Source: Candidatus Omnitrophota bacterium
Lineage (GTDB): Bacteria > Omnitrophota > JACPQZ01
Assembly: GCA_016190205.1 (NCBI GenBank)
Contig: JACPQZ010000065.1
Coordinates: 1-30,888, forward strand
Direction: 5' to 3'
Length of the DNA: 30,888 nucleotides
Shown: piece by piece, positions 784 through 30,888 of the stretch
Position numbering within the stretch: position 1 is the stretch's first letter
How the letters are laid out: the number at the start of each line of letters is the position of its first letter
Translations under genes and position numbers: made by a program
The notes under the pieces: generated by a model
Told to the model about the DNA's origin: nothing
The model's database searches: none
What the model saw: the letters and a program-made list of their open reading frames with translations, nothing else

Positions 784-1311
784 ATGATTAAGACATTTGT
801 AACAAAGCCCAGGCCGGAAAAGCGCGAGTGGGTGCTTTTGGACGCCCAAGATCAAGTGTTGGGACGGCTCGCTACCCGTGCGGCCATCCTGTTGAGAGGT
901 AAAGACAGGCCCACCTACACGCCCCATGTTGACGGGGGGCGCGGTGTCGTGGTGATTAACGCGGAAAAAATACGTACGACAGGCCAAAAACTGACGCAGA
1001 AGATATATACGCGTTATTCGGGTTACCCGGGCGGAATCAGGAGAAGGTCGCTCCAGGAGATGCTGGAAAGATTTCCGCAACGAGTGTTTGAGCACGCGGT
1101 GAAGGGGATGCTCCCTAACAGCAAGATGGGCCGGAGGCTTATGACGCACCTGCGGGTATATGTGGGGCCCGAGCATGAGCAACAGGCGCAGCTCGTCGTC
1201 CGGAATCAAACCGGTACGAAAGAGGAAGGAAGAAGGGCGAAGGACGAAGGACAAGCGAAAATGAACCCAAAACCAATTGCCAGCGACCAGCAACCAGCGA
1301 CCAGCGACTAA
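784..1311 (+). CDS. rplM: 50S ribosomal protein L13 with repeat-derived C-terminal tail
   Basis: L13 is an early-assembling protein of the large ribosomal subunit. The family hallmarks are present: [16 protein letters not shown] near residues 17-32, the [16 protein letters not shown] stretch, RYSGYPGG, and the [14 protein letters not shown] helix. The usual length is about 142-150 residues, but this one is 175. The extra tail after about residue 144 is encoded by tandem GAAGGAC-like and CCAGCGA-like units (1223-1310), not by L13-like sequence. The ATG at 784 gives the normal N-terminus, although no clear ribosome binding site precedes it. The stop (1309-1311) is separated by one base from the rpsI start, so the two are probably translationally coupled. 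Confidence 0.95.
1223..1310 (+). repeat. Heptamer-type tandem repeats inside the 3' end of rplM
   Basis: The first part consists of GAAGGAC-like units (about 1223-1253). The second part consists of CCAGCGA/CCAGCAA units (about 1280-1308). The array is translated as the last roughly 30 residues of L13 and stops just before the rpsI ATG. The CCAG family recurs at 9101-9150 and 27011-27065. Confidence 0.75.
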
Positions 1312-1312
1312 C

Positions 1313-1708
1313 ATGGCTACTATATCTACCTATTACGGAACAGGACGTCGCAAAGAAGCGACTGCCAAGGTTTGGATAACCCCTGGTGGATCGGACTTTG
1401 TGGTGAACGGGAGAAAACTCACAGAGCATTTTCCCCGTGAGACGCTGGTTGCGCTCATTAAACAGCCCCTCGTGGCTGTCAGTAAAACAGAGGGTATAGG
1501 TGTACGTGTCCGAGTGAGCGGAGGCGGAATCAGCGGTCAGGCGGGGGCTGTGCGGCATGGTCTCTCCAGGGCCCTTATTGCCTTGAGCGCTGAATTTCGG
1601 CGGCCCTTGAAGGAGGGGGGCTTCTTGACGCGCGATTCACGCATGAAGGAGCGCAAGAAGTACGGCCGCAAGCGGGCGCGCAAGAGCTTCCAGTTTTCAA
1701 AGCGGTAG
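1313..1708 (+). CDS. rpsI: 30S ribosomal protein S9
   Basis: S9 is a small-subunit protein whose C-terminal tail reaches the P-site tRNA. The 131-residue product has the usual length. It shows the N-terminal YYGTGRRKEATAKV motif, the GGGISGQAGAVRHGLSRAL signature, and the basic C-terminus ending KSFQFSKR (canonical ...FSKR). The ATG at 1313 is chosen over an upstream TTG at 1277. The TTG frame only adds repeat-encoded residues, while the ATG gives the standard N-terminus. Upstream bases are repeat DNA without an AGGAGG-like site, so initiation probably depends on coupling to rplM, which ends at 1311. Confidence 0.96.
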   Translation: MATISTYYGTGRRKEATAKVWITPGGSDFVVNGRKLTEHFPRETLVALIKQPLVAVSKTEGIGVRVRVSGGGISGQAGAVRHGLSRALIALSAEFRRPLKEGGFLTRDSRMKERKKYGRKRARKSFQFSKR

Positions 1709-1749
1709 GAGACTTGACGAGAACATAAGCGACAAAGATCAAATTCATA

Positions 1750-1806
1750 AAGCCTGTTTTGTCCTGCGTCACGCCCCGCAGATTGACAAAACAGGCTTAT
1801 TATTTT
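1750..1806 (+). terminator. Rho-independent terminator after rpsI
   Basis: A perfect 14-bp stem pairs 1750-1763 with 1785-1798 (AAGCCTGTTTTGTC and its complement). It is extended by an inner 5-bp stem (1764-1768 with 1777-1781) after a 3-nt bulge. The downstream strand continues into a T-rich run, TATTATTTT. It separates the ribosomal-protein unit from the arginine cluster. Confidence 0.85.
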
Positions 1807-1833
1807 ACAATCAAAGTTTCAGTCGTATATAAG
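1804..1833 (+). promoter_or_regulatory. Candidate promoter for the arginine cluster
   Basis: TTTACA (1804-1809) lies at the end of the terminator's T tract. TATATA (1826-1831, 16-bp spacing) or TATAAG (1828-1833, 18-bp spacing) follows. Transcription would start near 1838-1841, giving an unusually short leader of about 10 nt before argC. No ARG-box-like palindrome was recognised. Confidence 0.45.
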
Positions 1834-1850
1834 AGATATAGGTGCCATCT

Positions 1851-2879
1851 ATGTCAGTGAAAGTGGGCATTGTCGGTGTAACCGGATATTCGGGAGAGAA
1901 TCTGATTCGGATCCTGGCCAAGCATGGTAAGACCAAAATTGCCTGTGCCATGAGCCGGAGCATTGAGGAGCCCACTCCTGTGGGCAAGCGCTTTCCGGCG
2001 TTATCCGGGCAACTGGAGCTGGACATCCTGCCTCTGGATGAGGAGGCCTTGGCCAGGGCCTGCGACGTGGTATTTCTGGCGCTGCCGCATACCGAATCGA
2101 TGGAGAGGGCGGCGACTCTCATTGAAAAAGGAAAACGGGTAGTGGATCTCGCGGCGGATTTTCGTCTAAAGGACCCGTCCCTGTTTCAAAAATGGTATGG
2201 AAAGGCACACGCCGCACGCGACCTCTTAAGAGATGCAGCGTACGGACTCACGGAGCTCAACGCAAGCGAGATCCGCAAGGCGCGGCTCATTGCCAACCCG
2301 GGATGCTACGCCACGAGCGTCATCCTGGCTGTAGCCCCGCTCATCCGGGCGGGGTATCTGGCGGAGGGCGAGTTCATTGCAGACGCAAAGAGCGGGATAA
2401 CGGGCGCCGGCCGCGCTTTGAACGCCGATTTCCATTTCCCGGAAATGGATGGAAACGCCTGGCCCTATCGTGTCAACCGGCACGCCCACCAGCCCGAGAT
2501 GGAGCAGTGTCTTTCGGGCTTGGGGAACGGTCCTGTGCGCGTCATTTTTACGCCGCAGGTGATCCCGGTTTCAAGAGGGATTTTGACGACCGTCTACGCG
2601 CGGCTCGTATCGGCATGGGATACCGCGCGCCTTCTGCAGGAATATAAGGAGTTTTATGCCCAGTCGGTCTTCGTGAGGGTGAGGGAAGAAGGGTATTGGC
2701 CGCATCTCAAGGACGTGGAGAGGACCAATTTCTGTGATATCTCGCTGTCCGTCGACGAGACGGGAAAACGCGTGATTATCGTCTCCGCGATCGACAACCT
2801 GATCAAGGGCGCGAGCGGGCAGGCGGTGCAGAACTTGAACTGCATGTTTGGCTGGGAGGAGTCGGAGGGTCTTTTGTGA
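1851..2879 (+). CDS. argC: N-acetyl-gamma-glutamyl-phosphate reductase
   Basis: ArgC makes the NADPH-dependent reduction of N-acetylglutamyl-5-phosphate to the semialdehyde, third step of arginine synthesis. The N-terminal nucleotide-binding motif GVTGYSGENLIR, the catalytic cysteine in NPGCYATS (Cys152 from this start) and the HQPEMEQ histidine motif are all visible. At 342 residues it is normal length. I prefer ATG 1851 because AGGTG (1840-1844) sits 6 nt upstream. A GTG at 1842 would add three residues and cannot be excluded. The gene's stop overlaps the argJ start (GTGA at 2876-2879), so it is the first gene of a coupled arginine operon. Confidence 0.96.
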   Translation: MSVKVGIVGVTGYSGENLIRILAKHGKTKIACAMSRSIEEPTPVGKRFPALSGQLELDILPLDEEALARACDVVFLALPHTESMERAATLIEKGKRVVDLAADFRLKDPSLFQKWYGKAHAARDLLRDAAYGLTELNASEIRKARLIANPGCYATSVILAVAPLIRAGYLAEGEFIADAKSGITGAGRALNADFHFPEMDGNAWPYRVNRHAHQPEMEQCLSGLGNGPVRVIFTPQVIPVSRGILTTVYARLVSAWDTARLLQEYKEFYAQSVFVRVREEGYWPHLKDVERTNFCDISLSVDETGKRVIIVSAIDNLIKGASGQAVQNLNCMFGWEESEGLL

Positions 2880-4090
2880 GTTTTGAGCTTCGGACGGTTT
2901 CAGGAGGCGTCACGGCCGCCAAGGGATTTCTGGCCTGCGGTATGCCGTGCGGGATTAAGAGGACAGGCCGGCCGGATTTGGCCTTGATCTGGGCCGAGCG
3001 GCCTGCCCGGGCGGCCGCCGTCTTCACCCGCAACCGTTTTAGGGCGCATCCGGTGCGGCTGGACATGGCCCGCCTCAGGCAGGGGGTGGCACAGGCAGTC
3101 CTCATCAACAGCGGGAATGCCAACTGCCTCACGGGCCGCAGGGGTTACCGGCGGACTCTGCTTTTGTCAAAGCGGGCAGCCAAGATACTCAAGGTGCCCG
3201 AGTACCGCCTGTTTTTATTTTCGACAGGGGTGATCGGAATCCCCCTGCCCGCAGACAAGATCGAGATGGCTCTCCCTGAACTCGTTGAAGGCTTAAGCCG
3301 TGAGGGTGCGGGCCCGGCGGCGCAGGCCATTCTTACGACGGACAGGGTGCGTAAAGAGATCGCGGTCCGCTTTAAGGCGGGCGGGCGCACGGTCACCCTG
3401 GGCGGGATGGCGAAGGGCTCTGGGATGATCCAGCCGAATATGGCGACGATGCTTGCCTTTCTCACGACGGATGCGGTGATCGGTCTTTCCGCGCTTCGGA
3501 AGGCACTGGCGGAAAGTTGCCGGAGGTCTTTTAACCACATCAGTGTAGACGGCCAGATGAGCACGAACGATTCCGTGCTTCTGTTGGCGAACGGACTCGC
3601 CTTAAACCGCGCCGTTCGCCCGGCGGGCCGTGACTTTGAGGTATTTCAGAGGGCGCTGGATTTCGTAACGGCGAGGCTTGCGGAGATGATTGTGTCGGAT
3701 GGCGAAGGGGTGACGCGGCTCATGAAGGTATGTGTCCGGAGGGCGGCGAGCCCTGATGAGGCGGAGCGCGTGGCCTTAAGCGTGGTCAATTCTCCCCTCG
3801 TGAAAACCATGCTGAGCGGGGGCGATCCCAATTGGGGCCGCGTGCTTCAGGCCGTGGGGGCCACCCGGGTGCCGTTTGCCCCGGACAAGGTGAAGGTGAG
3901 TTTTGATTCGCATCCCGTATTTGCGAAAGGAGAGCGCACGCGCTATTCGAGAAGCAAGCTCAAAGGCGTGTTCAAACGCCGCATCGTGCCCATTCTGATT
4001 GAACTCGGCCGCGGGAAGTACTCTTGTGAGAAGCTGGGGGCGGACCTTTCTCCACTCTATGTCCGCGTCAACGCCCGCTATGGAACATAG
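2876..4090 (+). CDS. argJ: Glutamate N-acetyltransferase / ornithine acetyltransferase
   Basis: ArgJ transfers the acetyl group from N-acetylornithine to glutamate, closing the acetyl cycle; some members also use acetyl-CoA. The frame carries the NSGNANCLTG motif and the self-cleavage motif KGSGMIQPNMATML. Cleavage would fall between Ala190 and the nucleophile Thr191, giving alpha and beta chains. The NWGR motif occurs in the second half. Its 404 residues are typical. It starts at GTG 2876, overlapping argC by 4 nt, with GGAGGG (2864-2869) 6 nt upstream. No argE or argA is in the window, consistent with a cyclic pathway. Whether it is mono- or bifunctional cannot be told from sequence. Confidence 0.95.
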   Translation: MSFELRTVSGGVTAAKGFLACGMPCGIKRTGRPDLALIWAERPARAAAVFTRNRFRAHPVRLDMARLRQGVAQAVLINSGNANCLTGRRGYRRTLLLSKRAAKILKVPEYRLFLFSTGVIGIPLPADKIEMALPELVEGLSREGAGPAAQAILTTDRVRKEIAVRFKAGGRTVTLGGMAKGSGMIQPNMATMLAFLTTDAVIGLSALRKALAESCRRSFNHISVDGQMSTNDSVLLLANGLALNRAVRPAGRDFEVFQRALDFVTARLAEMIVSDGEGVTRLMKVCVRRAASPDEAERVALSVVNSPLVKTMLSGGDPNWGRVLQAVGATRVPFAPDKVKVSFDSHPVFAKGERTRYSRSKLKGVFKRRIVPILIELGRGKYSCEKLGADLSPLYVRVNARYGT

Positions 4091-4096
4091 GTTTGT

Positions 4097-6176: not shown

Positions 6177-6567
6177 CCTATTGTTTTCGGTGCTGTGCGA
6201 TGAGGTCCGTCGGGAACACAACGGAAAGTTTATCCTCATCGGACTCTTTGAGGTCATTGGCACGCACACCTTGCCCGCTGTCCATCCCAAGCTCACGGTG
6301 GTGAACCGCTGGGCAGGCGGGACAGGTGAATACAAACAACAGATCAGGATTATTTCCGGAGAGAACGACGCAGTGATCGCCCGTGACAAAGAGGTGGGTT
6401 TCACCCTCAAGGACACGCGCCGCAGTCATACGGTCGTGAGCGTCTTTCAAGGCCTGCGTTTCGAACGGTCCGGGACTTACTGGGTGGAGACGCTCCTGAT
6501 GGGCGAGTTGAAGCTTCGGTACCCGTTTGAAGTTGTGGTCGTCGCACAGAAACAAAGTAAAAAGTGA
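6166..6567 (+). CDS. Small DUF6941-like protein of unknown function
   Basis: A 133-residue soluble protein overlapping argD by 11 nt and therefore likely co-translated with it. The N-terminal pattern (LLFSVLCDEVRREHNGKF, then ILIGLFE and a VHPKL turn) and the C-terminal GTYWVETLLMGELKLRYPFEV resemble what I know of the DUF6941 family. It looks mostly beta-rich. No catalytic motif, signal peptide or membrane segment is visible. It sits between argD and argF, interrupting an otherwise canonical arginine gene order, but this alone does not establish a role in arginine metabolism. Family assignment is from memory and moderately sure; function is unknown. Confidence 0.75.
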   Translation: MLPDLLFSVLCDEVRREHNGKFILIGLFEVIGTHTLPAVHPKLTVVNRWAGGTGEYKQQIRIISGENDAVIARDKEVGFTLKDTRRSHTVVSVFQGLRFERSGTYWVETLLMGELKLRYPFEVVVVAQKQSKK

Positions 6568-6623: not shown

Positions 6624-6665
6624 TCTCAAGAAACAACGTAGAAAGTGAAAACTCAAAAGGCAAAA

Positions 6666-7577: not shown

Positions 7578-7580
7578 TGT

Positions 7581-7811
7581 TTTCGTACAGCGTACTGCGT
7601 ACAGCGTACAGCGTCGTGCGTACAGCGCAACGTCGGGGCGAGCAAAGATTCGTACAGCGTACAGCGTCGTGCGTACAGCGAACGAAAACCCATTCTCAAC
7701 TTTCACGCAGTACGCTGTACGCTGTACGCTGTACACTTTACGCAGTACGCAGTACGATCGCGTCTGCTTGGAATAAGGTACGCAGTACGCAAGACGCAGT
7801 ACGCAGTACGA
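7581..7811 (+). repeat. GTACAGC/GCTGTAC heptamer array with inverted arms, copy 1
   Basis: The gap between argF and argG is almost entirely degenerate 7-mers. The left part (7581-7680) repeats GTACAGC/GTACTGC, and the right part (7705-7811) repeats the complement, GCTGTAC/GCAGTAC. They flank an unrepeated core at about 7681-7706 (starting AACGAAAACCC). The arms could form a long imperfect hairpin. Two blocks, 7590-7643 (54 nt) and 7664-7715 (52 nt), are identical to 30700-30753 and 30825-30876. Frames running through this DNA are artefacts of the repeat. Confidence 0.85.
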
Positions 7812-9030: not shown

Positions 9031-9400
9031 CGTGAATCGTGAATCGTGGATCGTGGATCGTGAATCGCCATTTCGTGAATCGTGAATCGAAAAAAAGAAA
9101 CCAGATACCAGTTGCCAGTAACCAGAAGATACCAGATGCCAGAAACCAGAAAAAATACGAAATTCGAATATCGAGATTCGAAGCAAGTTAGAAATTCGAA
9201 ATCAGAAATTCAAAACAACCGTTTTCGAATTTTGAATTTTGGTCAATCGAATTTGCTTCGTGCTTCGAATTTCAAGCTTTGGATTTCATCTTTTCTATCT
9301 GGTATCTGGTCTCTGGAATCTTCTGGTATCTGGTTGCTGGTTTCTGGTTACTCAAGCCGTCAACTACGTTTCACGAATCACGATTCACGAATCACGACGA
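9031..9400 (+). repeat. Three-layer nested inverted repeat array between argG and argH
   Basis: This 384-bp gap has no gene. Its order is A-B-C-C'-B'-A'. A is CGTGAATC units (9031-9090), B is CCAGATA/CCAGTAA units (9101-9150), and C is CGAAATTC-like units (9157-9215). C' is the complement, TTCGAATTT-like (about 9221-9290), B' is CTGGTATCTGGT-like (9296-9350), and A' is CGATTCACGAATCACG-like (9371-9397). Each layer is complementary to its partner at the same depth, so the whole gap could fold into one long segmented hairpin. The core near 9211-9273 recurs at about 19296-19358. Confidence 0.85.
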
Positions 9401-10790: not shown

Positions 10791-12069
10791 TTTCAAGTAC
10801 CGCGGCAGGAAGTTATGCTGCGAACGGCTGGATCTAGCGTCCATCGCGGAGCGCGTGGGCACCCCGTTTTACTGTTACAGCCAAAAGAGCCTGCTGGATC
10901 ATTTCAATAAACTCAAGAGGGCCTTTCGTTCGATCTCGCCCTTGATCTGTTTTTCTATGAAAGCCAATTCCAATCTGGCGGTCCTGAAGCTCCTGACCCG
11001 GCAGGGAGCGGGACTGGATGTGGTGAGCGGGGGCGAATTGTACAAGGCCCGTCGAGTGGGCGTCCCGGCGCGGCGCATCGTCTATGCCAGCGTGGGGAAG
11101 ACGGAAGCGGAGATCGTCTATGCCCTTAAGGAGGACATCCTCCTCTTTAACGTGGAATCGGTGCCGGAGCTCGAGCTGATTCAGCGGCTCGCGCGGCGGC
11201 TCAAGAAGCGGCCCCGGGTTTCGGTGCGCCTCAATGTGGAGGTCGACCCGCGCACCCACCGTTATATCGCCACGGGTGTATCCACGAGCAAGTTTGGACT
11301 GGACCTTAAATCGGCGCGCGGCCTTTTCTTAAATTCCCGGCACTATGTCCCCGCGGAGCTTGTCGGCGTGCACATCCATATCGGCTCCCAGATCACGAGC
11401 GGGTCGCCGTACGCCCAGGCCCTGCGGCGCGTGGCGAGTTTTGTGAAAGACCTAAAAAAGCGGGGCGTGCACATCCCGTGGCTCAATGTGGGCGGCGGGC
11501 TGGGGATCATCTATCATGACGAGCGGCCGCAGACGGCGCATGCCTTCGCGCGCAGGGTGCTGCCGCTCTTAAAAACGCTGCCGGCGCGCCTCATCATGGA
11601 GCCGGGCCGGTTTATCGCAGGCCCCAGCGGCGTGCTGGTCACGCGCGTCACCACGGTCAAGAAGACCCCGCGTAAGACCTTTATCATCGTGGATGGGGGT
11701 ATGAGCGACCTTTTGCGGCCGAGTCTCTACGGCGCCTATCACTCCATCTGGCCCGTGCGCAGGTCTTCCAACGGTCCCCGCGTGGAGTGCGATGTGGTCG
11801 GGCCCATTTGTGAAAGCGGGGATTTTTTGGCGCGGGACCGGAAGCTCGCGCTTCCAGGATCGGGGGATCTCTTGTCGGTTCTGGGGGCGGGGGCGTATGG
11901 ATTTGTCATGGCGTCCAATTATAACTCCCGGCCGCGTCCTCCGGAAGTTCTGGTCAATGGAAGCAGGATGTACGTCGTGCGGCGGAGGGAGACGTACCGG
12001 GATCTCGTGCGCGGGGAGAGTATTCCGGCGTATCTTCGGGAAGCGGGAAGCGGGAAGCGGGAAGCGTGA
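10783..12069 (+). CDS. lysA: Diaminopimelate decarboxylase
   Basis: LysA decarboxylates meso-diaminopimelate to lysine. The PLP lysine is in FSMKANSN (Lys60). GLDVVSGGELYKA, the HIHIGSQI histidine motif, the glycine-rich GGGLGI loop, EPGRFI, and the dimer-partner cysteine in CESGDFLA are all visible. ATG 10783 has AAGGTG (10769-10774) 8 nt upstream and overlaps argH by 8 nt; an in-frame upstream start at 10729 only adds residues out of phase with argH. The last ten residues (REAGSGKREA) are encoded by four tandem GGGAAGC units and are not family sequence. Length is 428 residues. Confidence 0.96.
   Translation: MHDFKYRGRKLCCERLDLASIAERVGTPFYCYSQKSLLDHFNKLKRAFRSISPLICFSMKANSNLAVLKLLTRQGAGLDVVSGGELYKARRVGVPARRIVYASVGKTEAEIVYALKEDILLFNVESVPELELIQRLARRLKKRPRVSVRLNVEVDPRTHRYIATGVSTSKFGLDLKSARGLFLNSRHYVPAELVGVHIHIGSQITSGSPYAQALRRVASFVKDLKKRGVHIPWLNVGGGLGIIYHDERPQTAHAFARRVLPLLKTLPARLIMEPGRFIAGPSGVLVTRVTTVKKTPRKTFIIVDGGMSDLLRPSLYGAYHSIWPVRRSSNGPRVECDVVGPICESGDFLARDRKLALPGSGDLLSVLGAGAYGFVMASNYNSRPRPPEVLVNGSRMYVVRRRETYRDLVRGESIPAYLREAGSGKREA
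12038..12065 (+). repeat. Four perfect GGGAAGC units at the lysA/dapF junction
   Basis: Exactly four 7-nt units fill 12038-12065. They encode the LysA C-terminus and end at the base before the dapF GTG. The next bases, CGTGAATCG, match the A family of 9031-9090. The array also supplies the purine-rich sequence in front of the dapF start. Confidence 0.85.
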
Positions 12070-12941
12070 ATCGCAAAAATACCATTCCAATAGTGAAAAT
12101 GAGCGGGTCGGGAAACCTCTTTGTCCTCGTGGACAACCGGGCCGGCCTTTTGCGTGCCAATCTCTCATCCTGCGCGCGCAAGGTGTGCCGTGATGAACGG
12201 GTGGACGGACTCCTCGTGGTGGAGGCGGGCGCGGGGAACGAAAACGGGGCATTTCAAATGCATTTTTTTAATCCGGATGGATCGGAGCCGGGGATGTGCG
12301 GAAACGGGGCTCGCTGCGTGGCCTATTTTGCCGTCTCGGAGCTTAAACTCCCTGCCCGCGGCCTCGTCTTTAATGTGGTGAATTCGCGCGGCTCGGTCCA
12401 GGCAGATGTACGTCTTAAGGGGCATGAGGTAAGCATTTCACGGCTTCCTGAACCCACCGGCTACCAAGCGCATGTTCTGGAACCTCTGGCCGTTGGGCTT
12501 CCCAAGGGGGTGGAGATCTCTTTTATGGACAGCGGGGTCCCTCACACAGTCGTGTGGGGACTCAAGCCTGAGGCTGTGGAAGTGGAGAGAATAGGCCGTC
12601 GCATTCGGGAGCACAACGCTTTTAAACCGGGCGGGACAAACGTGAATTTTGCAGCGGTGCGGAACCGGCGCACCCTTTTCATGAGGACCTATGAGCGCGG
12701 TGTGGAGCGTGAGACCGGCGCGTGCGGGACAGGTGCCATTGCCACCGCGGTGATTGCCGCCCTGGAAGGAAGGGTGGAGTCCTTCGGGCCAGGTCAGAAT
12801 TTTCAATTGACAGCCGAGACGCGGCTCGGCGAGGAGCTTCAGGTGAAATTTGAGCTGGACCGCGCCGGGCGCACCGCGCGGCAGGTCTCGCTGACCGGAC
12901 GAGTCCAGGTATTGGAACGGAAGGAGATTGGGGTATGCTGA
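12066..12941 (+). CDS. dapF: Diaminopimelate epimerase
   Basis: DapF interconverts LL- and meso-diaminopimelate without a cofactor, using two cysteines. Both are present: Cys78 in GMCGNGARC and Cys220 in GACGTGA. The N-terminal MSGSGNLFVLVDN fits the family KMxGxGNxF pattern. The 291-residue length is normal. The GTG start overlaps the lysA stop (GTGA at 12066-12069), and the GGGAAGC array forms its only ribosome-binding-like sequence. DapF acts directly downstream of the DapL product, so its presence fits the aminotransferase pathway encoded here. Confidence 0.96.
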   Translation: MNRKNTIPIVKMSGSGNLFVLVDNRAGLLRANLSSCARKVCRDERVDGLLVVEAGAGNENGAFQMHFFNPDGSEPGMCGNGARCVAYFAVSELKLPARGLVFNVVNSRGSVQADVRLKGHEVSISRLPEPTGYQAHVLEPLAVGLPKGVEISFMDSGVPHTVVWGLKPEAVEVERIGRRIREHNAFKPGGTNVNFAAVRNRRTLFMRTYERGVERETGACGTGAIATAVIAALEGRVESFGPGQNFQLTAETRLGEELQVKFELDRAGRTARQVSLTGRVQVLERKEIGVC

Positions 12942-18605: not shown

Positions 18606-19241
18606 ATGAAGCATTCTGACAGTCACAAGGCCTACATAGGCATCGGGTCGAATATGGGCGATCGCGCCGCCATGATTCGCAAGGCCCTGGCCTACCTGGA
18701 ATCAGAGGGCTCTGTGGACGGTGGACAGTCGAGGGTGGACTCATGCGAACGGCGAGCGGCGAACGGCGAGCGGCGAACATTGGGCCGCTGTATTAAGATC
18801 GAGCAAATCAGCAGCTTTTATGAAACCGAACCAGTGGGCGGGCCCCCGCAGGGCCGCTTCATTAACGGAGCGGTGTCTGTCAGGACTCGTTATTCGCCTC
18901 ACTGCTTGCTCGAGTGCTGTAAGAGGGCGGAGCGCGCGTTGGGCCGTGCGCCGGGCGTCCGTTACGGGCCCAGACCGATCGATCTGGACATCCTTTTTTA
19001 TGATGATGAGGTGTTGGAGACGGCAGATCTTGTGATTCCTCATCCACGCCTCGCCGAGCGGCTCTTCGTCTTGATGCCCTTGGCCGAGATCGCGCCGGAA
19101 TACGTGCATCCTGTACTCGGTGTTCCGGTGAAAGAGCTCTTACAAAGGCTGACAAAGCGTGGCTCACCGCATCCGGCAGTGAGCATGGAGCCATCAGCCT
19201 TCGGCTTTCAGCCATCAGCAAAAGCCGGCGGCGGCACATGA
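18606..19241 (+). CDS. folK: 2-amino-4-hydroxy-6-hydroxymethyldihydropteridine pyrophosphokinase with repeat insert
   Basis: FolK transfers pyrophosphate from ATP to the folate pterin precursor. The N-terminal AYIGIGSNMGDR, the SSFYETEPVGGPPQGRFINGAV segment and the RYGPRPIDLDILFYDD signature are intact. At 211 residues it is about 50 longer than usual. An insert of about 25-30 residues lies between the first helix (ALAYLE) and strand IKIEQISSFY, encoded by GTGGAC- and GCGAACG-type repeats (18713-18779). The last 20 or so residues are also repeat-like. ATG 18606 is needed for the conserved N-terminus, though AAGG abuts it too closely for a good site. Activity is uncertain but conserved motifs survive. 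Confidence 0.9.
   Translation: MKHSDSHKAYIGIGSNMGDRAAMIRKALAYLESEGSVDGGQSRVDSCERRAANGERRTLGRCIKIEQISSFYETEPVGGPPQGRFINGAVSVRTRYSPHCLLECCKRAERALGRAPGVRYGPRPIDLDILFYDDEVLETADLVIPHPRLAERLFVLMPLAEIAPEYVHPVLGVPVKELLQRLTKRGSPHPAVSMEPSAFGFQPSAKAGGGT
18713..18779 (+). repeat. Tandem repeats inserted in-frame within folK
   Basis: Two arrays lie side by side. The first consists of GTGGAC-based units (18713-18740). The second alternates GCGAACG and GCGAGCG 7-mers (18744-18779). The reading frame of folK is kept across both. Confidence 0.8.
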
Positions 19242-19370
19242 GAGATGCACGACCAAATCCGAAATCCGGATATCGAAATTCGAAATCCGAAATACAAAAC
19301 GCAGTTTTCGAATTTTGACTTTGGTCCTTCGAATTTGCTTCGTGCTTCGAATTTCGAGTTTCGAATTTAA
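19189..19370 (+). repeat. Repeat block at the folK 3' end and folK-panC gap
   Basis: CCATCAG-type units (19189-19219) form the FolK tail. After the stop, CGAAATCC/CGAAATTC units (about 19257-19296) are followed by the complementary TTCGAATTT units (about 19306-19368), a C-C' inverted pair as at 9157-9290. The core GAATTTGCTTCGTGCTTCGA (about 19330-19349) is shared with 9249-9268. The 183-nt gap holds nothing else recognisable apart from the panC start region. Confidence 0.8.
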
Positions 19371-19424: not shown

Positions 19425-20366
19425 ATGCGAGTCGTACGTACGATCAGCGCCTTGCGGCGCTGGGTTCGCTCTGAAAAGCGCAAGCGACATTCCATCGGTT
19501 TTGTTCCCACCATGGGGGATTTACACGCAGGGCATCTTGCGCTCATCCGCCGGGCGCGGCGGGAGAATGCGCGGGTCGTTGTAAGCATCTTCGTGAATCC
19601 GACACAGTTCAACGAGGTACGTGATTATCGCCGCTACCACCGGAACCTTGAGGCCGATCGGCGGCAGGCTTCCGCGTGCGGGGCGGATCTTGTTTTCGCG
19701 CCCAGCGCGCGCGAGATGTACCCCTTTGGTGTTGGGTCACGGGTACGCGCCCCCCGCCAGGCGGAGGGACTGTGCGGGGCCTTCCGGCCGGGCCATTTTG
19801 ACGGCGTGGCTACGGTGGTAGCAAAGCTGTTTAACTGCGTGGAGCCCGACCGGGCGTATTTTGGCCGGAAGGATGCCCAGCAGGCCGCCGTCGTGCGCCA
19901 GCTGGTGAAGGATCTCAATTTTCCGGTCGAGGTTCAGGTGTGCCCCACGGTCCGGGACCGAGACGGACTCGCCTTATCCAGCCGGAATCGAAGGCTCCGG
20001 CCGCGCGAGCGCGAGCAGGCAGTGCGTATTTGGCGCGCGCTCGCGGCGGTGCGAGACGAGGTGCGGGGGGGAAAGGGCGATCGGGCCTCCCTGCGCGCCT
20101 TTTTGCGGTCGCGGCTCAAAGGCCCCGGCATGCGGCTGGAGTATGCGGAAGTGGTAGATCCGGCGACCTGTGTGCCCGTCAACCGTCATTGGTCGCGGGC
20201 CCTCGTCGCGGTGTGTGTGTGGGTCGGTGATACCCGGCTCATTGATAACGTAATAGTCCGTCGTCCGTCGTCCGTCGTCCTGCGAAAGGATCGCGACGGA
20301 CGCAGGACGCAGGACGCAGGACGCAGAACGAGAAAGGAAGTCGTGATATGTTACGGCAGATGTTGA
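19425..20366 (+). CDS. panC: Pantoate-beta-alanine ligase with repeat-derived C-terminal tail
   Basis: PanC condenses pantoate and beta-alanine with ATP to give pantothenate. The HIGH-like motif appears in [11 protein letters not shown], followed by [19 protein letters not shown] and the [18 protein letters not shown]-equivalent loop. The family normally ends soon after the TRLIDN motif (near 280 residues). Here about 35 extra residues follow, encoded by GTCCGTC/GGACGCA repeats (20256-20328), and the stop lies 19 nt inside panD. ATG 19425 gives the standard N-terminus, with no good ribosome binding site. Confidence 0.94.
20256..20328 (+). repeat. Inverted GTCCGTC / GGACGCA heptamer arrays at panC 3' end
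   Basis: GTCCGTC units run from 20256 to 20280 and GGACGCA units from 20298 to 20328. A 9-bp perfect stem, CGTCCTGCG (20276-20284) with CGCAGGACG (20301-20309), can close a hairpin between them. The block is translated as the PanC tail and lies just before the panD ribosome binding site (AAGGA at 20334-20338). Confidence 0.8.
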
Positions 20367-24410: not shown

Positions 24411-27042
24411 AAGCTATCCCGAAACCCCCCTTCTGCTGCAATCGCTGCTTTTGGCCTGCGACCAAGCCCGGGTACCCGCGCGAACAGCGCGGGTGGGCGA
24501 AGGAAGTGCCAGAGCACGTAGTGCGACGGCCGCCTTTGCGCCGCTCGGCTTGCGCACCGCTGCGGGTGCGCGGCGCCTCACGTCGCTGCGGCTCGGCTTC
24601 AAAATCAGCGATTTCGCTACGAAGCGAGGTTTCGGGATAGCTTCTAAGATTTTTTGTAAGGTCTTTTTCGGAGCCGCGCTCGTCCTGGCGTGCGCGGCGC
24701 CGTTTTCTCCTGCGCGCGCCAAAGAGACCCAAGACGATCTTTTATTTGCAAGGAACGCTTTTCAAGATGGGTTTTACGGGATCGCGCTTTCCAAGCTGGA
24801 CAACATCATCAAGCGCGGGTTGGAGCCGGAGGTCCTGGACGAGGCGCTCTTATTGAGGGGAGAAACCCTGTTTTTTCAAGGGCGTTTGCCGGAGGCCGGG
24901 TTGGATTTCAAGCGAATCCTGGAAGAGTTTCCCAAAGGGCGGTTTGCTGCCCACGCCCAGCACTGGATGGGGGAGGTGGCCTTCCGTGAGGACCGCTTTG
25001 ATGAGGCCGTCGACGCCTATTCCAAGTCCGTTCGCCACTTTCCAAAGTCGGAGGTAGTGGCGCTCTCCTTATATGGGCTGGGCTGGAGCTATTACGAGCA
25101 GGGGAGGGACGATGAAGCGGCGGAGGCCTTCAAGCGGATCATCCGGGAACACAGCCGGCACGAGGTTTTCGGCGAGTCGCAGTTTAAATGGGCCGAGTGC
25201 ACTTGGTTTTTGGGGAAATATGACGAATCGGCCTATGCGTTCCGTCAGTTTATCAAAAAGCATCCACGGTCTGGCCTCGTACCCGTCGCCTATTTCTGGC
25301 TGGGGGAGAATAATTATGCCCTGGGGCGATACTCCCAAGCCGGGGAAGATTACCGCGAAGCGGTCCGGCTGGCGGGTGACGCCGGTGAAGGGGACGCGGA
25401 GTGGGTGGGAAAGGCGCATTATGGCGCTGCCTGGGCGGCTCTTAAAGCGGGTGATTACGGGGAGGCGCAGGCCCAAGTGGAACGTTTCATGGAATATTTC
25501 GCTGGGGACCGGCTGTTCGAGTCGGCCCTGTTTTTGAAGGGGGTCGTTCTGGGAGAGCAAGGCGATCATCAGGAATCTTTACAAGTTTATGACGAGCTCT
25601 TGGACAGGTTTCCCGACGGCGCTTGGGCCGGCCACGCCCTCTTCCGGAAGGGCAGTCTGGAGCTTGAAGAGGGGGATTACAACCATGCCCTGGCCACTTT
25701 TCTTGAGCTCGATCAGCGCGCCCAGGGAGGGCTATTGTATGACGGCCGATACCTCATCGGAAAGAGTTACGTCGCGCTGGGGATGTACGGGCATGCCATC
25801 CGGACGCTTGAGTCACTCGCGGGCGACCCCGCCGTCCGGGAGGACCTGCGTGTGGGGGCGCGGGCACTTTTGGCAGACACGTTTCTAAAATCAGGACGGG
25901 TGGAGGAGGCGCTTGGAGCATACGATGAGATTTTGAACCAGCATGCCCAGCATCCCCTCGCCTCGATGGCACAGTACCGGGTGGGCGAGATCTTTTATAA
26001 GCAGGGTCAGTATGAGCAGGCGATGACCGCCTTCCGGAACCTGATGGTCAATCTCCGCCACGCAGCCCTTGAGGAAAGGGCCCAATATAAACTCGCCTGG
26101 TGTAATTTTCACTTGGGCGATTACAAAACGGCCGGTCAGCTTTTTGCGGCGGTGGCGCACGACTATCCCCAGTCTCCCTGGGCGTGGGATGCCCGTCTTA
26201 TGGCTGCCGAGTCTGTCTTCAACGCAGGGGATTTCAAAGAGGCCTTGAAACGCTTTCGCGAGCTTCGGGAGGAGACGGAGGAGCCGGAGGAAGGGCTGCA
26301 GACGGACTACGGCATAGCCTGGAGCCTGTGGCAGTTGGGGGAAGAGGGGCACGCGGCTCAAATCTTCTCTGCCCTTGTGAGCGAATACCGGCAGCATGCG
26401 CTTACGGCGGACGTCCTATTTTGGCTGGGCCAATATTACTCCGACCGGGGAGAGTGGAACGAGGCCCAGCGGATGCTTAAGGAAATCCCTCTCCGCTTCC
26501 CCCAGCATGAACTGGTCCCTGACGCCCTGTACGCATCGGGCTGGGCCTTCTACCGGCAGGGGGATTTCCTGTCGGCCCTGGAAACATTCAAGGGATTTTC
26601 TGCGCGCTTCCGTGAGGGCCCTCTATCGGGAGATGCCCTCTATTGGACTGCACAGATTGAGAAGGGACAGGGGAAGCTCAAGGAGTCAATCCTCCATTTT
26701 CAAAAGGCCCTGGAGGTTGCAAACGCGGCGCTGAAGCCGCGCATCCAGTATGAACTGGCGCGGTCGTATCAGGACAGCCAGGACCCTGACCAGGCCATAT
26801 TGGAATATCTGAAAGTAGCCTATCTCTATCCTGATGTAACTGAGTGGGTTACGAAGGCAAACCTGCAGGCGGCCTGGCTTTTTGAGCAGGGCAAACGTTG
26901 GTCCGAAGCCGAAACGATTTACACGAAACTCGCTTCGGCCGAAGGTGAGGAGGCCACCGTCGCCAAGAACCGGTTAAATTGGATAAAAGAGAATGTTAAC
27001 CACGCAGGAGAGACCAGTAACCAGAAACCAGTGACCAGATAG
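24382..27042 (+). CDS. Multi-TPR periplasmic protein; start codon unresolved
   Basis: From about residue 115 the frame is a long series of tetratricopeptide-like repeats (roughly 18-20), of the BamD/YbgF type found in envelope proteins. A signal peptide is visible just before ([21 protein letters not shown], cleavage likely after ARA). The coordinates give the full open frame from ATG 24382, but the first 88 or so residues translate the end of uvrA and the inverted-repeat element and are not natural protein sequence. No ATG, GTG or TTG lies between the element and the signal peptide: candidates are GTG 24493, TTG 24550 inside the element, or the rare ATT 24649. The final residues (TSNQKPVTR) are encoded by CCAG repeats. 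It precedes exbB-exbD-tonB and probably works with them. Confidence 0.8.
24408..24646 (+). repeat. 239-bp element with 19-bp perfect terminal inverted repeats (MITE-like)
   Basis: TAGAAGCTATCCCGAAACC (24408-24426) is repeated in perfect inverted orientation at 24628-24646. The interior is rich in smaller hairpins, such as CCCGCGC/GCGCGGG (about 24475-24493) and CGCACC/GGGTGCG (about 24553-24571). The arms show further weak complementarity inward (AATCGCTG and TTTTG blocks). It carries no transposase and resembles a non-autonomous or REP-like palindromic element. No target-site duplication was evident. It contains the uvrA stop codon. Confidence 0.7.
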
Positions 27043-27256
27043 ATTCCAGAAGCCAGATACCAGAGAGAAATGATGAAATTCGAAATACGAAATTCGAAGC
27101 ACGAACAAATTCGAAATCCGAAATGTAGAACACTGGATTTTGAATTTCTAATTTCGAATTTCGATATTGTTCGGATTTCGATATTCGAATTTCGGATTTT
27201 CCTGGTTTCTGGTATCTGGTCTCTTCTGGTAACTGGCAACTGGTATCTGGTATCTA
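27011..27256 (+). repeat. Nested inverted repeat array between the TPR gene and exbB
   Basis: Order B-C-C'-B': CCAGTAA/CCAGAAA units (27011-27062, including the TPR gene's last codons), CGAAATTC/CGAAATCC units (27072-27122), the complementary TTCGAATTT units (about 27137-27200), and CTGGTATCTGGT units (27202-27256). It is the same B and C families as 9101-9350 without layer A. The conserved core lies here in its reverse-complement form (GAAGCACGAA at about 27097-27106). The 244-nt gap holds no gene. Confidence 0.85.
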
Positions 27257-27286
27257 TTTTTACAAGGTAACTGAGGAGAACATAAA

Positions 27287-27919: not shown

Positions 27920-28301
27920 GCAGAGGACGCGCATCGAACGCGGCCGCTTGGATATGACCCCACTCATTGACGTGGTCTTTCTGCTCCTCATCTTCTTTAT
28001 GCTGACCTTTACGTTCATCACCCCTCCGGGCATCAAGGTCAAACTGCCCAAGGCGGTGACGGCGCAGGCCCTTGAGAAGGACCAGATTGTGATTACCCTG
28101 ACCCGGAAAAAGGAGCTTTTCTTGGAATCGGAGCCTATCACCCGCCAGGCGCTCGAGGAGGTGCTCAAGGGGGCAGCCCAAAAGAACAAAACGGTTCTCA
28201 TCGAAGCCGACCGGGAGGTTGTTTTCGATGAGGTGATATCCATTTGGGATAAATGCAGGTCGACAGGCGTATCGGAAATTAATATCGCGACTACTCCTTG
28301 A
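27909..28301 (+). CDS. exbD: ExbD/TolR-type biopolymer transport protein
   Basis: A single-pass inner-membrane protein that pairs with ExbB. The membrane helix carries the conserved proton-path aspartate (Asp21 in DMTPLIDVVFLLLIFF). A periplasmic domain follows, with the usual EADREVVFDEVISIWDKCRSTG pattern split over about residues 98-119. Its 130 residues are normal. The start overlaps exbB by 11 nt and the stop overlaps the next gene's TTG by 4 nt (TTGA), so the three subunits are probably made in fixed ratio. Confidence 0.93.
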   Translation: MRFKQRTRIERGRLDMTPLIDVVFLLLIFFMLTFTFITPPGIKVKLPKAVTAQALEKDQIVITLTRKKELFLESEPITRQALEEVLKGAAQKNKTVLIEADREVVFDEVISIWDKCRSTGVSEINIATTP

Positions 28302-29014
28302 ACACGCTGATGCTACCCAACCGCGTTTTTGCCGGCGCCCTGCTGGGTTCTGTGGGCCTCCACGCGGCGGCCATGAGCCTTTTTACGGTCGTTCTCGGGC
28401 CTCACCTAACGGTTTTTCCCCGCTCCATGGACACGATTTTTCTGGGGGCTGTTCTTGAGGAGAGGTTGTGGGCTTCCCTCAATCAGGGAACCAAGCAGGC
28501 GGAGAGAGACGCCCGGCTTTCAAAGCGCGTACCTCTCGAGGAGCAAACGTCCGATTGGGACGAAATGGAAGTAGAGGTGCCGGGACTCAATCCACCCTTA
28601 CCCGAGAGGGAAACGGCGGTATGGCAACGGACTTCTCGGTCGTTTTTTGCGCCCTCTCTCCCGTCTCCGAACAAAGAGCTGGGTGCTGAACCCGCGCCCG
28701 AGAGAGTGGAAAGCCCCATTCTCTTGGAAGGGCCGGCAGGGACGAGACCGCTCATCTGGACTCCGGGGCGGAAAGAAATGGTCTCTTTGATACAGGAGTT
28801 CAGGGGCGCCCGCAGGACGGCGTCATTTAAATTTTGGGTCTCGGAGGAGGGCTGGGTAACTCGTGTCATTCCTATTCGTTCCACCGGCTTTATCGAGTCG
28901 GATAACCGGGTCATGCAAGTCCTGCGCCGTTTTCGCTTTGCCCCCCGCGAGGGCGGCGGGGAAGAAATGGAGTGGGGCGTGGCCACGTTGGAAGGCAGGA
29001 CCGATGCTGGGTGA
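28298..29014 (+). CDS. TonB-like energy transducer
   Basis: A 238-residue protein with one N-terminal membrane anchor (about residues 11-32, starting VFAGALLGSVGLHAAAM) and a proline- and charge-rich linker. Its C-terminal domain ends in a TonB-like pattern (SEEGWVTRVIPIRSTG ... VMQVLRRFRFAP). It would span the periplasm and pass energy from ExbB/ExbD to an outer-membrane partner. The histidine in the helix (GLHAAA) fits the TonB-type S-H motif position. TTG 28298 overlaps the exbD stop; ATG 28310 is an alternative four codons later. No TonB-dependent receptor is in the window, so the partner is unknown. Confidence 0.8.
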   Translation: MNTLMLPNRVFAGALLGSVGLHAAAMSLFTVVLGPHLTVFPRSMDTIFLGAVLEERLWASLNQGTKQAERDARLSKRVPLEEQTSDWDEMEVEVPGLNPPLPERETAVWQRTSRSFFAPSLPSPNKELGAEPAPERVESPILLEGPAGTRPLIWTPGRKEMVSLIQEFRGARRTASFKFWVSEEGWVTRVIPIRSTGFIESDNRVMQVLRRFRFAPREGGGEEMEWGVATLEGRTDAG

Positions 29015-29258
29015 AATAGAATTTGCTACGGCCTGTGCGGCCTATCTGGGAATCACCGTTTTGGCTGTGCTCGTTATCTGGGGCGTAAGTACATTCTTCA
29101 AGAGGCAATGGGCGGTATCTCCTGAGCCGCACACAAGAGTTTGGGAGTGTTCTATTTGTCTTCATATATATTTGAGTAGAGAGGACCTGAACGTTACGGA
29201 ATGCCCCTTATGCAAGAGCTATAACGAATGGCCAGTTCAGCAGTTGAGAGCTTCATAG
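29004..29258 (+). CDS. Small membrane protein with C4 zinc ribbon
   Basis: An 84-residue protein. It has one membrane helix (about residues 12-31: YLGITVLAVLVIWGVSTFF) and a cytoplasmic or periplasmic C-terminal C-x2-C-x16-C-x2-C zinc ribbon (CSIC ... CPLC). ATG 29004 overlaps the TonB-like gene by 11 nt, and AGGA (28997-29000) is 3 nt upstream. I do not recognise a named family. Its place at the end of the exbB-exbD-tonB unit suggests an accessory role, but that is inference. A longer frame from 28863 is rejected because it lies wholly over the previous gene. Confidence 0.7.
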   Translation: MLGEIEFATACAAYLGITVLAVLVIWGVSTFFKRQWAVSPEPHTRVWECSICLHIYLSREDLNVTECPLCKSYNEWPVQQLRAS

Positions 29259-29268
29259 ACGCTATTGT

Positions 29269-29277
29269 TGCTATAAT
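29269..29277 (+). promoter_or_regulatory. Candidate extended -10 promoter upstream of the 29341 gene
   Basis: TGCTATAAT (29269-29277) is a perfect extended -10. No convincing -35 is seen at the proper distance (TTGAGA at 29244-29249 is 22 bp away), which extended -10 promoters can tolerate. Transcription would start near 29284 and pass through the AT-rich palindrome at 29289-29304. Confidence 0.5.
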
Positions 29278-29288
29278 GCGCGTTGGCT

Positions 29289-29304
29289 TATATAATATTA
29301 TATA
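29289..29304. promoter_or_regulatory. 16-nt perfect AT palindrome, possible operator
   Basis: TATATAATATTATATA is a perfect palindrome of A and T in otherwise GC-rich DNA, lying directly downstream of the extended -10. It could be an operator, a DNA-unwinding site or a second -10 region. No regulator is identified. Confidence 0.4.
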
Positions 29305-29340
29305 GAGGCTATACACTAATTGGGAAGGGGGGAGACAAGA

Positions 29341-29616
29341 GTGAGTGTAGATCCAACGGAGGAGGTCCAGGAGGAACGCCCTCCTATAGCGCCTCCGCTT
29401 AAGCTTGTAAAATTTCGTACGATCAGCAAGGGTGTGGGCTGGTGGTCTGCCGTTGTGATGGTCGAATCTTGGGGCAAAAAGATTGTGAGCCTCTATCTCT
29501 GGCAGCGGAAAGACAAGGAGTGGAGGCGGAAGCAAAAGTTCACCATCCGCAATAAGGAGAACTGGCACGCCATTCATACCGGCGTCGATGCCTTTCTCAA
29601 CGAGGTTAAGGAATAA
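29341..29616 (+). CDS. Conserved-looking small protein of unknown function
   Basis: A 91-residue soluble protein starting at GTG 29341, chosen because GGAG (29331-29334), part of a longer G-rich purine run, lies 6 nt upstream. The N-terminal 20 residues are acidic and proline-rich. The rest is basic and rich in tryptophan and lysine (LWQRKDKEWRRKQKFTI, HAIHTGVDAFLNEV), which would suit a small beta-sheet protein that binds nucleic acid or another protein. No catalytic motif, signal peptide or membrane segment is seen, and I do not recognise the family. It is followed 15 nt later by cutA. Confidence 0.65.
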   Translation: MSVDPTEEVQEERPPIAPPLKLVKFRTISKGVGWWSAVVMVESWGKKIVSLYLWQRKDKEWRRKQKFTIRNKENWHAIHTGVDAFLNEVKE

Positions 29617-29631
29617 GACGCGGCGGCGTCC

Positions 29632-29982
29632 ATGTCTTGGAACATCCTCATTACAAGCGCTGACAGTAAAGAGAAGGCGCGCACGATCGCTCAACATCTC
29701 CTTAAGAATAGACTGGCGGGCTGCGTGACGGTCATTCCTCGCGTCGAATCCACGTATTGGTGGAAGGGCAAGCTGGAAAGGGCGCGGGAATGGCTTTTGC
29801 TTATTAAAGGCAGATCCAGCCACTTTTCCAAGGCCTCGCGGGAAATCAAGAAGATCCATTCCTATGAGTGTCCCGAAATTATTTCTATTCCCATTCAGAG
29901 GGGGAGCGCAGACTATCTCGCGTGGCTGGATGCTTCTCTGGGAAGTAAAAAGTTAAAAGTTAAAAGCCAAAAGTACAAGTAA
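29632..29982 (+). CDS. cutA: Divalent-ion tolerance protein CutA1
   Basis: CutA1 is a small trimeric ferredoxin-like protein linked to divalent-metal tolerance; its exact role is not settled. The family pattern is clear: NRLAGCVTVIPRVESTYWWKG, then HSYECPEIISIPI (usually HPYE-PEI) and YLAWL near the C-terminus. Family members are about 100-110 residues; this one has 116. The last 10-12 residues (KKLKVKSQKYK) are encoded by AAAAGTT/AAAAGTC repeats beginning near 29945. ATG 29632 lacks a strong ribosome binding site but gives the normal N-terminus. Confidence 0.93.
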   Translation: MSWNILITSADSKEKARTIAQHLLKNRLAGCVTVIPRVESTYWWKGKLERAREWLLLIKGRSSHFSKASREIKKIHSYECPEIISIPIQRGSADYLAWLDASLGSKKLKVKSQKYK

Positions 29983-30062
29983 AAAGTCAAAAGTAAGTCG
30001 GATCGGTGGCCTTTTAGGTTTTAAGTTGTACTTTTGGCTTTTGGATTTTAAGTTTTAACTTT
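29945..30062 (+). repeat. AAAAGTC-type inverted heptamer array after cutA
   Basis: AAAAGTT/AAAAGTC/AAAAGCC units (29945-29994) face their complement (30014-30062). A 17-nt block, AAAAGCCAAAAGTACAA (29962-29978), is perfectly complementary to 30026-30042. The long A-rich/T-rich hairpin covers the gap between cutA and the PilZ gene. It could also act as a terminator. Confidence 0.85.
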
Positions 30063-30081
30063 CATGGATTGTGAGGGGTGA

Positions 30082-30426
30082 ATGGAGCATCGGGCCCGGG
30101 CGCGCCTTGAGGTGGCCCTCAAGGTCAAGTGGAAGTTTCTGGAAGGGGATGCGAAAGACCTTTCCCTCATCCGGGACGTGAGCGAAGAGGGCCTCCAGAT
30201 CGAGGTGGAGAAAGAGATCCTTCCCGGGACGAGGCTGGGGTTAAGTATACAACTTCCCGGTGACGAATCCATGATAGAGGCCGAGGCGGTCGTTTGCTGG
30301 ACCCGGAAGGCGCACGAGACCTGGCGGACGGATTACGACGCAGGTTTAAGGGTGACCCGCTTGAACGAATCTGACCGTGAGCGCCTTTTCCATTATCTCA
30401 AGCTGCGCATGACGGGGCAGGTATGA
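30082..30426 (+). CDS. PilZ-domain protein, probable cyclic di-GMP receptor
   Basis: A 114-residue single-domain PilZ protein. The two c-di-GMP-binding motifs are present: RxxxR (Arg4 and Arg8) and DxSxxG (Asp32, Ser34, Gly37). The C-terminal part ends with the usual GLRVTRLNESDRERLFHYL helix. ATG 30082 is preceded by GAGGGG (30073-30078). It overlaps the next gene by 4 nt. With the GGDEF protein at 13843-15567 it forms a potential producer/receptor pair in the same window, although nearly 15 kb apart. Its effector partner is unknown. Confidence 0.9.
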   Translation: MEHRARARLEVALKVKWKFLEGDAKDLSLIRDVSEEGLQIEVEKEILPGTRLGLSIQLPGDESMIEAEAVVCWTRKAHETWRTDYDAGLRVTRLNESDRERLFHYLKLRMTGQV

Positions 30427-30659
30427 GCGGCGGGGCTTCGGAGCCTGGGGCCCGGTGGTATACGAGCCGCTGGTTCGTGTTTGTTTCTATGCTTCCGCTG
30501 TGGCCGGTCAGCCTCTGGTTTTTGTGGAAGAGCCCGCTTTTCGGCAAACCCCTAAAGATTTTCTGGACTGCGGCAAGCGCCGTTTTGGCCATCCTAATTA
30601 CTGTATGGCTCGGTGAGCTGAACGTACAGCTCTATCGTCAGTTGGAGGAGCTTCTGTAA
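30423..30659 (+). CDS. Small two-helix membrane protein
   Basis: A 78-residue protein with two predicted membrane helices (about residues 17-35, FVFVSMLPLWPVSLWFLW, and 45-64, IFWTAASAVLAILITVWLG). No family motif is recognised. ATG 30423 overlaps the PilZ stop (ATGA at 30423-30426), so the two are probably co-translated; the protein could be a membrane partner of the PilZ receptor. It ends 24 nt before the terminal repeat array. Confidence 0.65.
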   Translation: MSGGASEPGARWYTSRWFVFVSMLPLWPVSLWFLWKSPLFGKPLKIFWTAASAVLAILITVWLGELNVQLYRQLEELL

Positions 30660-30682
30660 GGCTATTATTAGTAGGGTAGCCT

Positions 30683-30888
30683 GTTTCGTACAGCGTACTG
30701 CGTACTGCGTACAGCGTACAGCGTCGTGCGTACAGCGCAACGTCGGGGCGAGCGGGATTCGTACGGCGTACAGCGTCGTGCGTACAGCGCAACGTCCGCG
30801 CGAGCAGGATTCGTACAGCGTACTGCGTCGTGCGTACAGCGAACGAAAACCCATTCTCAACTTTCACGCAGTACGCAGTACGCAGTAC
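30683..30888 (+). repeat. GTACAGC heptamer array, copy 2, running off the window
   Basis: Same family as 7581-7811. The blocks 30700-30753 and 30825-30876 are identical to 7590-7643 and 7664-7715. An extra near-duplicate of the middle part (about 30760-30810) makes this copy longer between the blocks. The right inverted arm (GCAGTAC units) begins at 30868 and continues past the end. Confidence 0.85.

Follow-up and report, generated by a model that had tools for sequence, protein, structure and literature searches.

Palindromes built of 7-nucleotide (nt) tandem repeats lie between the genes of a 30,888-nt stretch of DNA from a Candidatus Omnitrophota bacterium (contig JACPQZ010000065.1 of GenBank assembly GCA_016190205.1; the whole stretch is hereafter the window). 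Here we report that these palindromes are probably copies, decayed or lacking the gene, of small hairpin mobile elements that carry a gene for the protein S23p. The S23p gene (S23/IVP) encodes a four-helix bundle and is known mainly as an insert in ribosomal RNA (rRNA). In this genome, in its phylum and in other bacteria, S23p genes are often enclosed by heptamer arrays, and near-identical cyanobacterial plasmids differ by inserts composed of such arrays and the gene.

Both rRNA intervening sequences (IVSs) with S23p and dispersed heptamer repeats are already known. Reports of the repeats in cyanobacteria, Xanthomonas, Beggiatoa and others go back decades and name no owner, and S23p has until now been a passenger of rRNA inserts of unknown function; the repeats now have a likely owner, and the link makes both testable. 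In the literature that we searched (with bioRxiv and most subscription journals outside its scope), we found no link between S23p and dispersed heptamers beyond a note on Coxiella, and no account of non-ribosomal residence in many phyla, of cognate heptamers or of nested gene-less copies.

S23p genes between inverted heptamer arrays

The assembly (termed G000, with the window as contig C54) comprises 76 contigs and 1.65 Mb, is about 93% complete and was reassembled from stretches covering 1,647,403 of its 1,648,513 bases. Among named relatives, the argG of the window is matched at 58% by an Omnitrophota genome and at 60% by a Poribacteria contig, so that on this evidence the phylum label is a likely one. 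Tandem Repeats Finder (TRF) assigned period 7 to 200 of 357 merged arrays, periods 14 and 21 to 71 and 18, and periods 6 and 8 to one and two, respectively; a Markov control sequence produced seven TRF rows, none at period 7. Counted by lag, 315 segments repeat at 7 nt, two each at 6 and 8, and none at 4, 5, 10 or 11, and the harmonic lags 14, 21 and 28 are present together with 24 and 31 (14 + 10 and 21 + 10). A preliminary description of the window had named eight heptamers with units of 7–8 nt and had given a sharp 7-nt mode across unrelated families as a sign that would favour a shared mechanism. All eight were found, roughly where they had been placed, and the mode extends genome-wide, mostly in intergenic DNA; the unit is 7 nt, not 7–8. 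Unit lengths are not broadly spread in G000, nor are the arrays confined to this contig. The same description had arrays in nearly every sizeable gap, which holds in the window, where every called gap of 180–385 bases but one (29015–29340) contains an array, but not across the genome: with genes called by our own simple caller, arrays occur in 146 of 462 co-directional gaps of at least 60 bases (32%), in 3 of 45 divergent gaps and in 2 of 15 convergent gaps, and about 22% of array bases fall inside called coding sequence. G000 therefore has the dominant intergenic 7-nt tandem unit of cyanobacterial short tandemly repeated repetitive sequences and heptameric simple sequence repeats (SSRs). Its arrays cluster into 28 multi-copy families and 58 singletons.

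An ACCAG palindrome of G000 (C24:38967–39197) holds a fragment that by eye resembles the 23S rRNA intervening-sequence protein and led us to S23p; the fragment did not match our S23p profile at an E-value of 0.01 and is a remnant at best. Five genes of the assembly match TIGR02436, and four of them lie between inverted heptamer arms, each of a different family: CGTACAG (C13), CGTGCTT (C21), a GTGAGTG-type (C31) and ACCAGNN (C24). Three of the S23p-bearing families rank first, second and fourth by abundance in G000, the two commonest both being present in the window; a random draw of four multi-copy families would contain as many arrays with P = 0.002. An S23p open reading frame (ORF) is contained in these four complete copies, and the palindromes of the window have none. 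For the CGTACWG and ACCAGNN palindromes of the window, G000 itself supplies S23p copies with arms of the same family; the other window families are assigned by form and nesting only.

Occurrence of the association across bacteria

From relatives within the Omnitrophota we collected 70 S23p genes, which with the five of G000 gave 75, and used a stretch 450–600 bases away as a control. A lag-7 array lies upstream of 61% and downstream of 63% of the relatives' genes, compared with 1% for the control stretch; for all 75 genes the counts are 46 upstream and 48 downstream, with 0–3 at other lags. Ordinary gaps contain an array in 5 of 48 cases in S23p-rich genomes and in 0 of 43 in S23p-free genomes. 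Random 20-kb samples yielded 17 arrays per 200 kb in S23p-rich genomes (5 of 10 genomes) against 0 per 136 kb in S23p-free genomes (0 of 10), a per-genome correlation drawn from just 20 short samples, four of which, on the S23p-free side, are below 6 kb. Outside the phylum, arrays lie upstream of 14 and downstream of 11 of 21 S23p genes. The same association is present in Planctomycetota, Atribacteria and Cyanobacteria and, within 23S rRNA as the classical intervening sequence, in Azospirillum; heptamer arms were seen by eye at S23p genes of named complete plasmids from Nostoc, Stanieria, Geminocystis, Anabaena, Calothrix, Gemmatirosa and others.

At 85% of 108 loci the arms, mostly 4–5 units long, pair as inverted repeats and form a stem around the ORF, compared with 8% for swapped pairs and 17% when the arms are matched as direct repeats. 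S23p is in the same sense as both neighbours at 57 of 74 loci in the phylum and antisense to both at 0 of 74, with neighbour strand approximated by the longest open frame. S23p genes and heptamer arms are very likely truly linked. S23p elements also lie between cas6 and cas4 of CRISPR operons on plasmids of Pseudanabaena and Anabaena 90 (loci L378 and L379); L378 carries long AAAAGCT/AAAAGCC arrays in the same orientation, not inverted.

Full and empty insertion sites

Near-identical cyanobacterial plasmids provide full and empty sites of S23p elements. Between plasmid C of Trichormus variabilis and Nostoc linckia (L382/L386), a clean 428-bp insert consists of the arms and S23p and has GTAAT on both sides, where the empty site has a single GTAAT (a 5-bp duplication); Nostoc C052 has a decayed copy at the same insertion site. 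A second site (L394/L385) has TTCTA at both ends with one further base different, and a third shows ATG. Presence and absence with target duplication, as in miniature inverted-repeat transposable elements (MITEs), is therefore found at two sites in cyanobacterial relatives; the window itself furnishes no such case, and no target duplications flanking its palindromes were recognisable by eye. Pairs in a TraM operon, an integrase operon and at nrdB/nrdA are also full versus empty, with ends undefinable through divergence.

In the cases inspected, insertion is at or just past the upstream stop codon. The empty form is commoner among the matches listed, which makes insertion appear more likely than loss at these sites. 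In plasmids of Stanieria cyanosphaera (L402 compared with L375), an internal deletion between the arms has removed S23p and left array stubs, thus revealing one route to gene-less or orphan arrays.

Architecture and nesting of the palindromes

The inverted-arm layout of the preliminary description is borne out by a fixed polarity: facing arrays of one family in G000 are always oriented one way (7:0 for CGTACWG, 5:0 for ACCAGNN and 6:0 for CGTGCTT). The ACCAG arms inspected, including 9101–9150 and 27009–27068 in the window, consist of four units, a 10-nt step (7 + 3) and three units, which explains the secondary lags 24 and 31. The non-repetitive loops are similar by eye between palindrome copies and, together with the common ACCAG arm layout, indicate that whole elements have spread.

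Homologous copies are dispersed within this one genome (by eye, at C54, C37, C70, C23 and C26, and at C37, C59 and C71). A composite with CGTGAAT arms around ACCAGNN arms around CGAAATT arms recurs at C54, C37 and C70, and one with CGTACWG around TGCACWT at C37, C59 and C71, both by eye; ACCAGNN arms enclose other cores at C23, C26, C32, C60 and C67. Hairpin nesting is thus modular, with one family's palindrome inside another's loop and the same composite at several sites. Folded as RNA, three palindromes of the window gave z-scores of −13.7 (9031–9397), −11.0 (27009–27255) and −7.1 (7584–7810), the first with −169 kcal/mol compared with −91 ± 5.7 for shuffles. Transcripts of the palindromes would, according to these models, form long, strong hairpins. 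The families had been called sequence-unrelated, and their sequences are indeed many; strict unrelatedness is rejected in part, as the S23p-linked heptamers share a weak WYAGNNN pattern in the arm sense (2.67 bits compared with 2.04 ± 0.06 for column-permuted controls).

Cognate S23p–heptamer pairs

Among pairs from different genomes at 92 loci, S23p similarity correlates with heptamer similarity (r = 0.168; 0/1000 permutations), and the ten closest S23p pairs have a mean heptamer match of 5.22 of 7, compared with 3.33 for all pairs. The ACCAG-type S23p of G000 forms a divergent branch, and its nearest sampled relative, in G034, shows 67% identity (relative score 0.69, next 0.27). This relative adjoins ACCAG arms, and its locus had first been fetched by DNA pattern, independently of S23p. 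Relatives of at least 53% identity occur in 5 of 57 genomes (G034, G035, G056, G037 and G031); that of G056, at 60% identity, is accompanied by 120 hits of the ACCAG pattern, with one array 20 bases from the gene (array–gene positions in G056 and G016 are from coordinates). The correlation would be expected equally from co-transfer of gene and arms and from recognition.

Relationship to ribosomal intervening sequences

Azospirillum lipoferum 4B has its S23p, with inverted GGACAGA-type arms, within a bacterial large subunit (LSU) rRNA (1344 bits). In the IVS of Coxiella, which RNase III excises, two to three GACAGAT heptamers immediately precede the start of S23p (PMC4990558). The intergenic elements therefore have the parts of an rRNA IVS in another location. 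The copies in the window and in G000 lie between protein genes, and only the Azospirillum locus is in LSU rRNA; the former are therefore IVS-like elements and not rRNA IVSs. Like the 23S rRNA IVSs of Coxiella, Leptospira and Azospirillum, the elements place an S23p gene in an inverted-repeat hairpin and are sporadically distributed, and they have heptamers beside the gene, as do the IVSs of Coxiella and Azospirillum. Unlike those IVSs, they are multi-copy, mostly intergenic between protein genes, mostly gene-less and nested, with many heptamer sequences. The system, which the preliminary description could not name, thus extends beyond G000 and resembles a long-known class of inserts.

A model for S23p elements and its alternatives

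In our model, a complete element would consist of a left array X (mostly four to five heptamers), a ribosome-binding site, the S23p/IVP gene and a right array with the reverse complement of X. Here and in many other genomes it would lie between genes, usually directly downstream of a stop codon and with the same coding strand as the genes on either side. S23p may recognise the arrays with one subunit per heptamer, and the geometry of the protein would then fix the 7-nt unit while the heptamer sequences of paralogues diverge; that S23p is the recognising factor that sets the unit is a real possibility to which we give somewhat less than an even chance. Gene-less, MITE-like palindromes would use a cognate S23p in trans, and nested palindromes would arise when an element inserts into another's loop and the two go on to spread together. 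Operons may collect these elements because the RNA hairpin that they encode is either tolerated or, as in the 23S IVS, cleaved by RNase III. A common mechanism acting on length and symmetry, as suggested earlier, gains support from these results, with the S23p element as the candidate factor; the insertion of whole elements at discrete sites means that more is involved than a process that only generates arrays.

More tentatively still, S23p and its cognate arms might constitute a mobile element class found throughout bacteria, in which a small pentameric RNA- or DNA-binding protein with no known catalytic domain directs insertion to positions beside stop codons, sets the 7-nt unit through its geometry, mobilises many gene-less palindromes in trans and owns most orphan heptamer repeats of bacteria. 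If the link holds, a matching S23p should exist, or once have existed, for every repeat family, and the heptamer recognised by each S23p should be its own. In many operons of uncultured phyla, such elements are predicted to have created hairpin processing sites and protein tails.

Several observations weigh against S23p elements as the source of the window palindromes. No transposition enzyme is among the parts of the element, target duplication is clear at just two sites, and the S23p of Coxiella seems not to be expressed. In G000, the fifth S23p gene (C16:13603–13908) has no arms, a GGAGCSA-type array starting about 110 bases downstream; most palindromes have no S23p gene; and CGTGAAT, CGAAATT, GGGAAGC, GGACGCA, GCGAACG and AAAAGTC have no S23p copy in this incomplete assembly. 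Several arrays of the window are single rather than paired. The few loci from other phyla (7 and 3) do not show the sense-strand bias of S23p, and the small sample behind the per-genome correlation counts on the same side. G037 has an ACCAG-type S23p gene and no matching arrays; conversely, ACCAGTC arrays with no ACCAG-type S23p occur in G016 (where they are numerous), G007 and G010, all from a single family of the phylum. We therefore reject the notion that ACCAG arrays always imply an ACCAG-type S23p; the cognate S23p of these arrays, if any, would come from another branch.

Among the alternatives, the one that survives best, though it is unlikely, takes the palindromes for retro-elements in which S23p assists a reverse transcriptase encoded elsewhere, as a homologue of Avd, a protein of diversity-generating retroelements (DGRs). 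PF05635 resembles Avd (PMC10053308), which is likewise a four-helix bundle and a pentamer, and the sense-strand bias would fit an RNA stage. Unlike in DGRs, no reverse transcriptase was found in G000: the assembly, at about 93% completeness, has no match to RVT_1 (PF00078), which speaks against membership of the DGR class.

We consider it slightly less likely again that the palindromes resemble REPINs or MITEs moved by Y1 transposases, either associated with repetitive extragenic palindromes (REPs) or of the IS200/IS605 type, with S23p as a passenger. G000 encodes four Y1_Tnp genes (C34:1303–1638, C13:21973–22293, C32:10230–10553 and C66:4946–5197), and REPs are dispersed intergenic palindromes (PMC3116915, PMC3733652). 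Dispersed gene-less palindromes dependent on a gene elsewhere are indeed common to these systems and the elements described here. Nevertheless, inverted heptamer arms frame none of the four Y1 genes, one of which has an array on one side only, so that the arrangement of REPINs and their REP-associated tyrosine transposases, a Y1 gene framed by repeats, is absent; furthermore, REPINs and MITEs do not have arms of 7-nt arrays, and REP families do not predict a 7-nt unit.

It is improbable that the arrays serve as sites at which a regulator binds the mRNAs of adjacent genes and are kept by selection, as in the translational control proposed for the TAACTGA repeats of Beggiatoaceae (MacGregor 2015, PMC4679880). 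The preference for co-directional (146/462) over divergent gaps (3/45) and the strong hairpins that transcripts would form agree with such a role; against it, sites differ between near-identical plasmids, one genome holds about 28 different families, and copies decay and nest. TAACTGA repeats, found in Beggiatoaceae, Cyanobacteria and Bacteroidetes, are likewise intergenic heptamers of patchy distribution, and TCAGTTA fits the weak WYAGNNN pattern, but they have one sequence, are direct rather than inverted and are read as translational control sites. Single palindrome copies may nonetheless have taken on a regulatory role later.

No more probable, and strongly disfavoured by the flank, inversion and empty-site tests, is the origin of the arrays as ordinary SSRs through slippage and unequal recombination, with S23p adjacent by chance or through a shared intergenic preference: heptameric SSRs are over-represented in Xanthomonas and Nostoc (PMC4692102), array copy number varies, and some arrays of the window stand singly within coding sequence, but arrays occupy 61–64% of S23p flanks compared with 10% of ordinary gaps in S23p-rich genomes, arms are inverted and matched within a locus with fixed polarity, and homologous loops, the 4 + 3 ACCAG layout at unrelated sites and whole-element insertions all speak against it. 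The cyanobacterial and Xanthomonas heptamers (GGGGATT, GGGAATC) are comparable in their 7-nt unit and dispersed intergenic positions, and inverted pairs have been noted among them; they differ in having been described as SSR or G-quadruplex sequences with no owner protein, and in the literature searched we found no S23p link for them.

Repeat features of the window

An Rfam search of the window gave no family match. The CGTACWG palindrome between argF and argG (7584–7810; left arm 7584–7629 and 7652–7682, right arm 7705–7756 and 7778–7810) shares its family with the S23p-bearing element G000:C13:782–1244. A second CGTACWG palindrome (30687–30888) has a long left arm with a super-repeat of about 52 nt, and its right arm passes the window end. 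The nested triple palindrome between argG and argH (9031–9397) comprises outer CGTGAAT arms (9031–9089 and 9366–9397), middle ACCAGNN arms of 4 + 3 units (9101–9150 and 9298–9349) and inner CGAAATT arms (about 9154–9216 and 9223–9280). At 27009–27255, ACCAGNN arms enclose a GAAATTC palindrome; on the left the arm extends into the 3′ end of a TPR gene, and an ExbB-like gene follows on the other side. The inner-type family stands alone as an AAATCCG/AATTTCG palindrome between folK and panC (19255–19368).

A single GGGAAGC array on the forward strand (12037–12073) forms the final codons of a lysA-like decarboxylase ORF. In several housekeeping proteins, arrays produce in-frame insertions or repetitive C-terminal tails. 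The forward-strand GCGAACG array at 18745–18778 is single and in frame within folK (HPPK), of which 155 residues align to a 116-position profile. Facing GTCCGTC (20256–20280) and GGACGCA (20298–20330) arrays inside the panC 3′ end (20256–20330) give a repetitive C-terminal tail, the left arm (29943–29982) of an AAAAGTC/AAAAGTT palindrome (29943–30062) lengthens the C terminus of the CutA1 gene, cutA, and forward-strand ACGAAGG (1216–1252) and CCAGCGA (1280–1308) arrays occupy the 3′ end of rplM (1216–1308).

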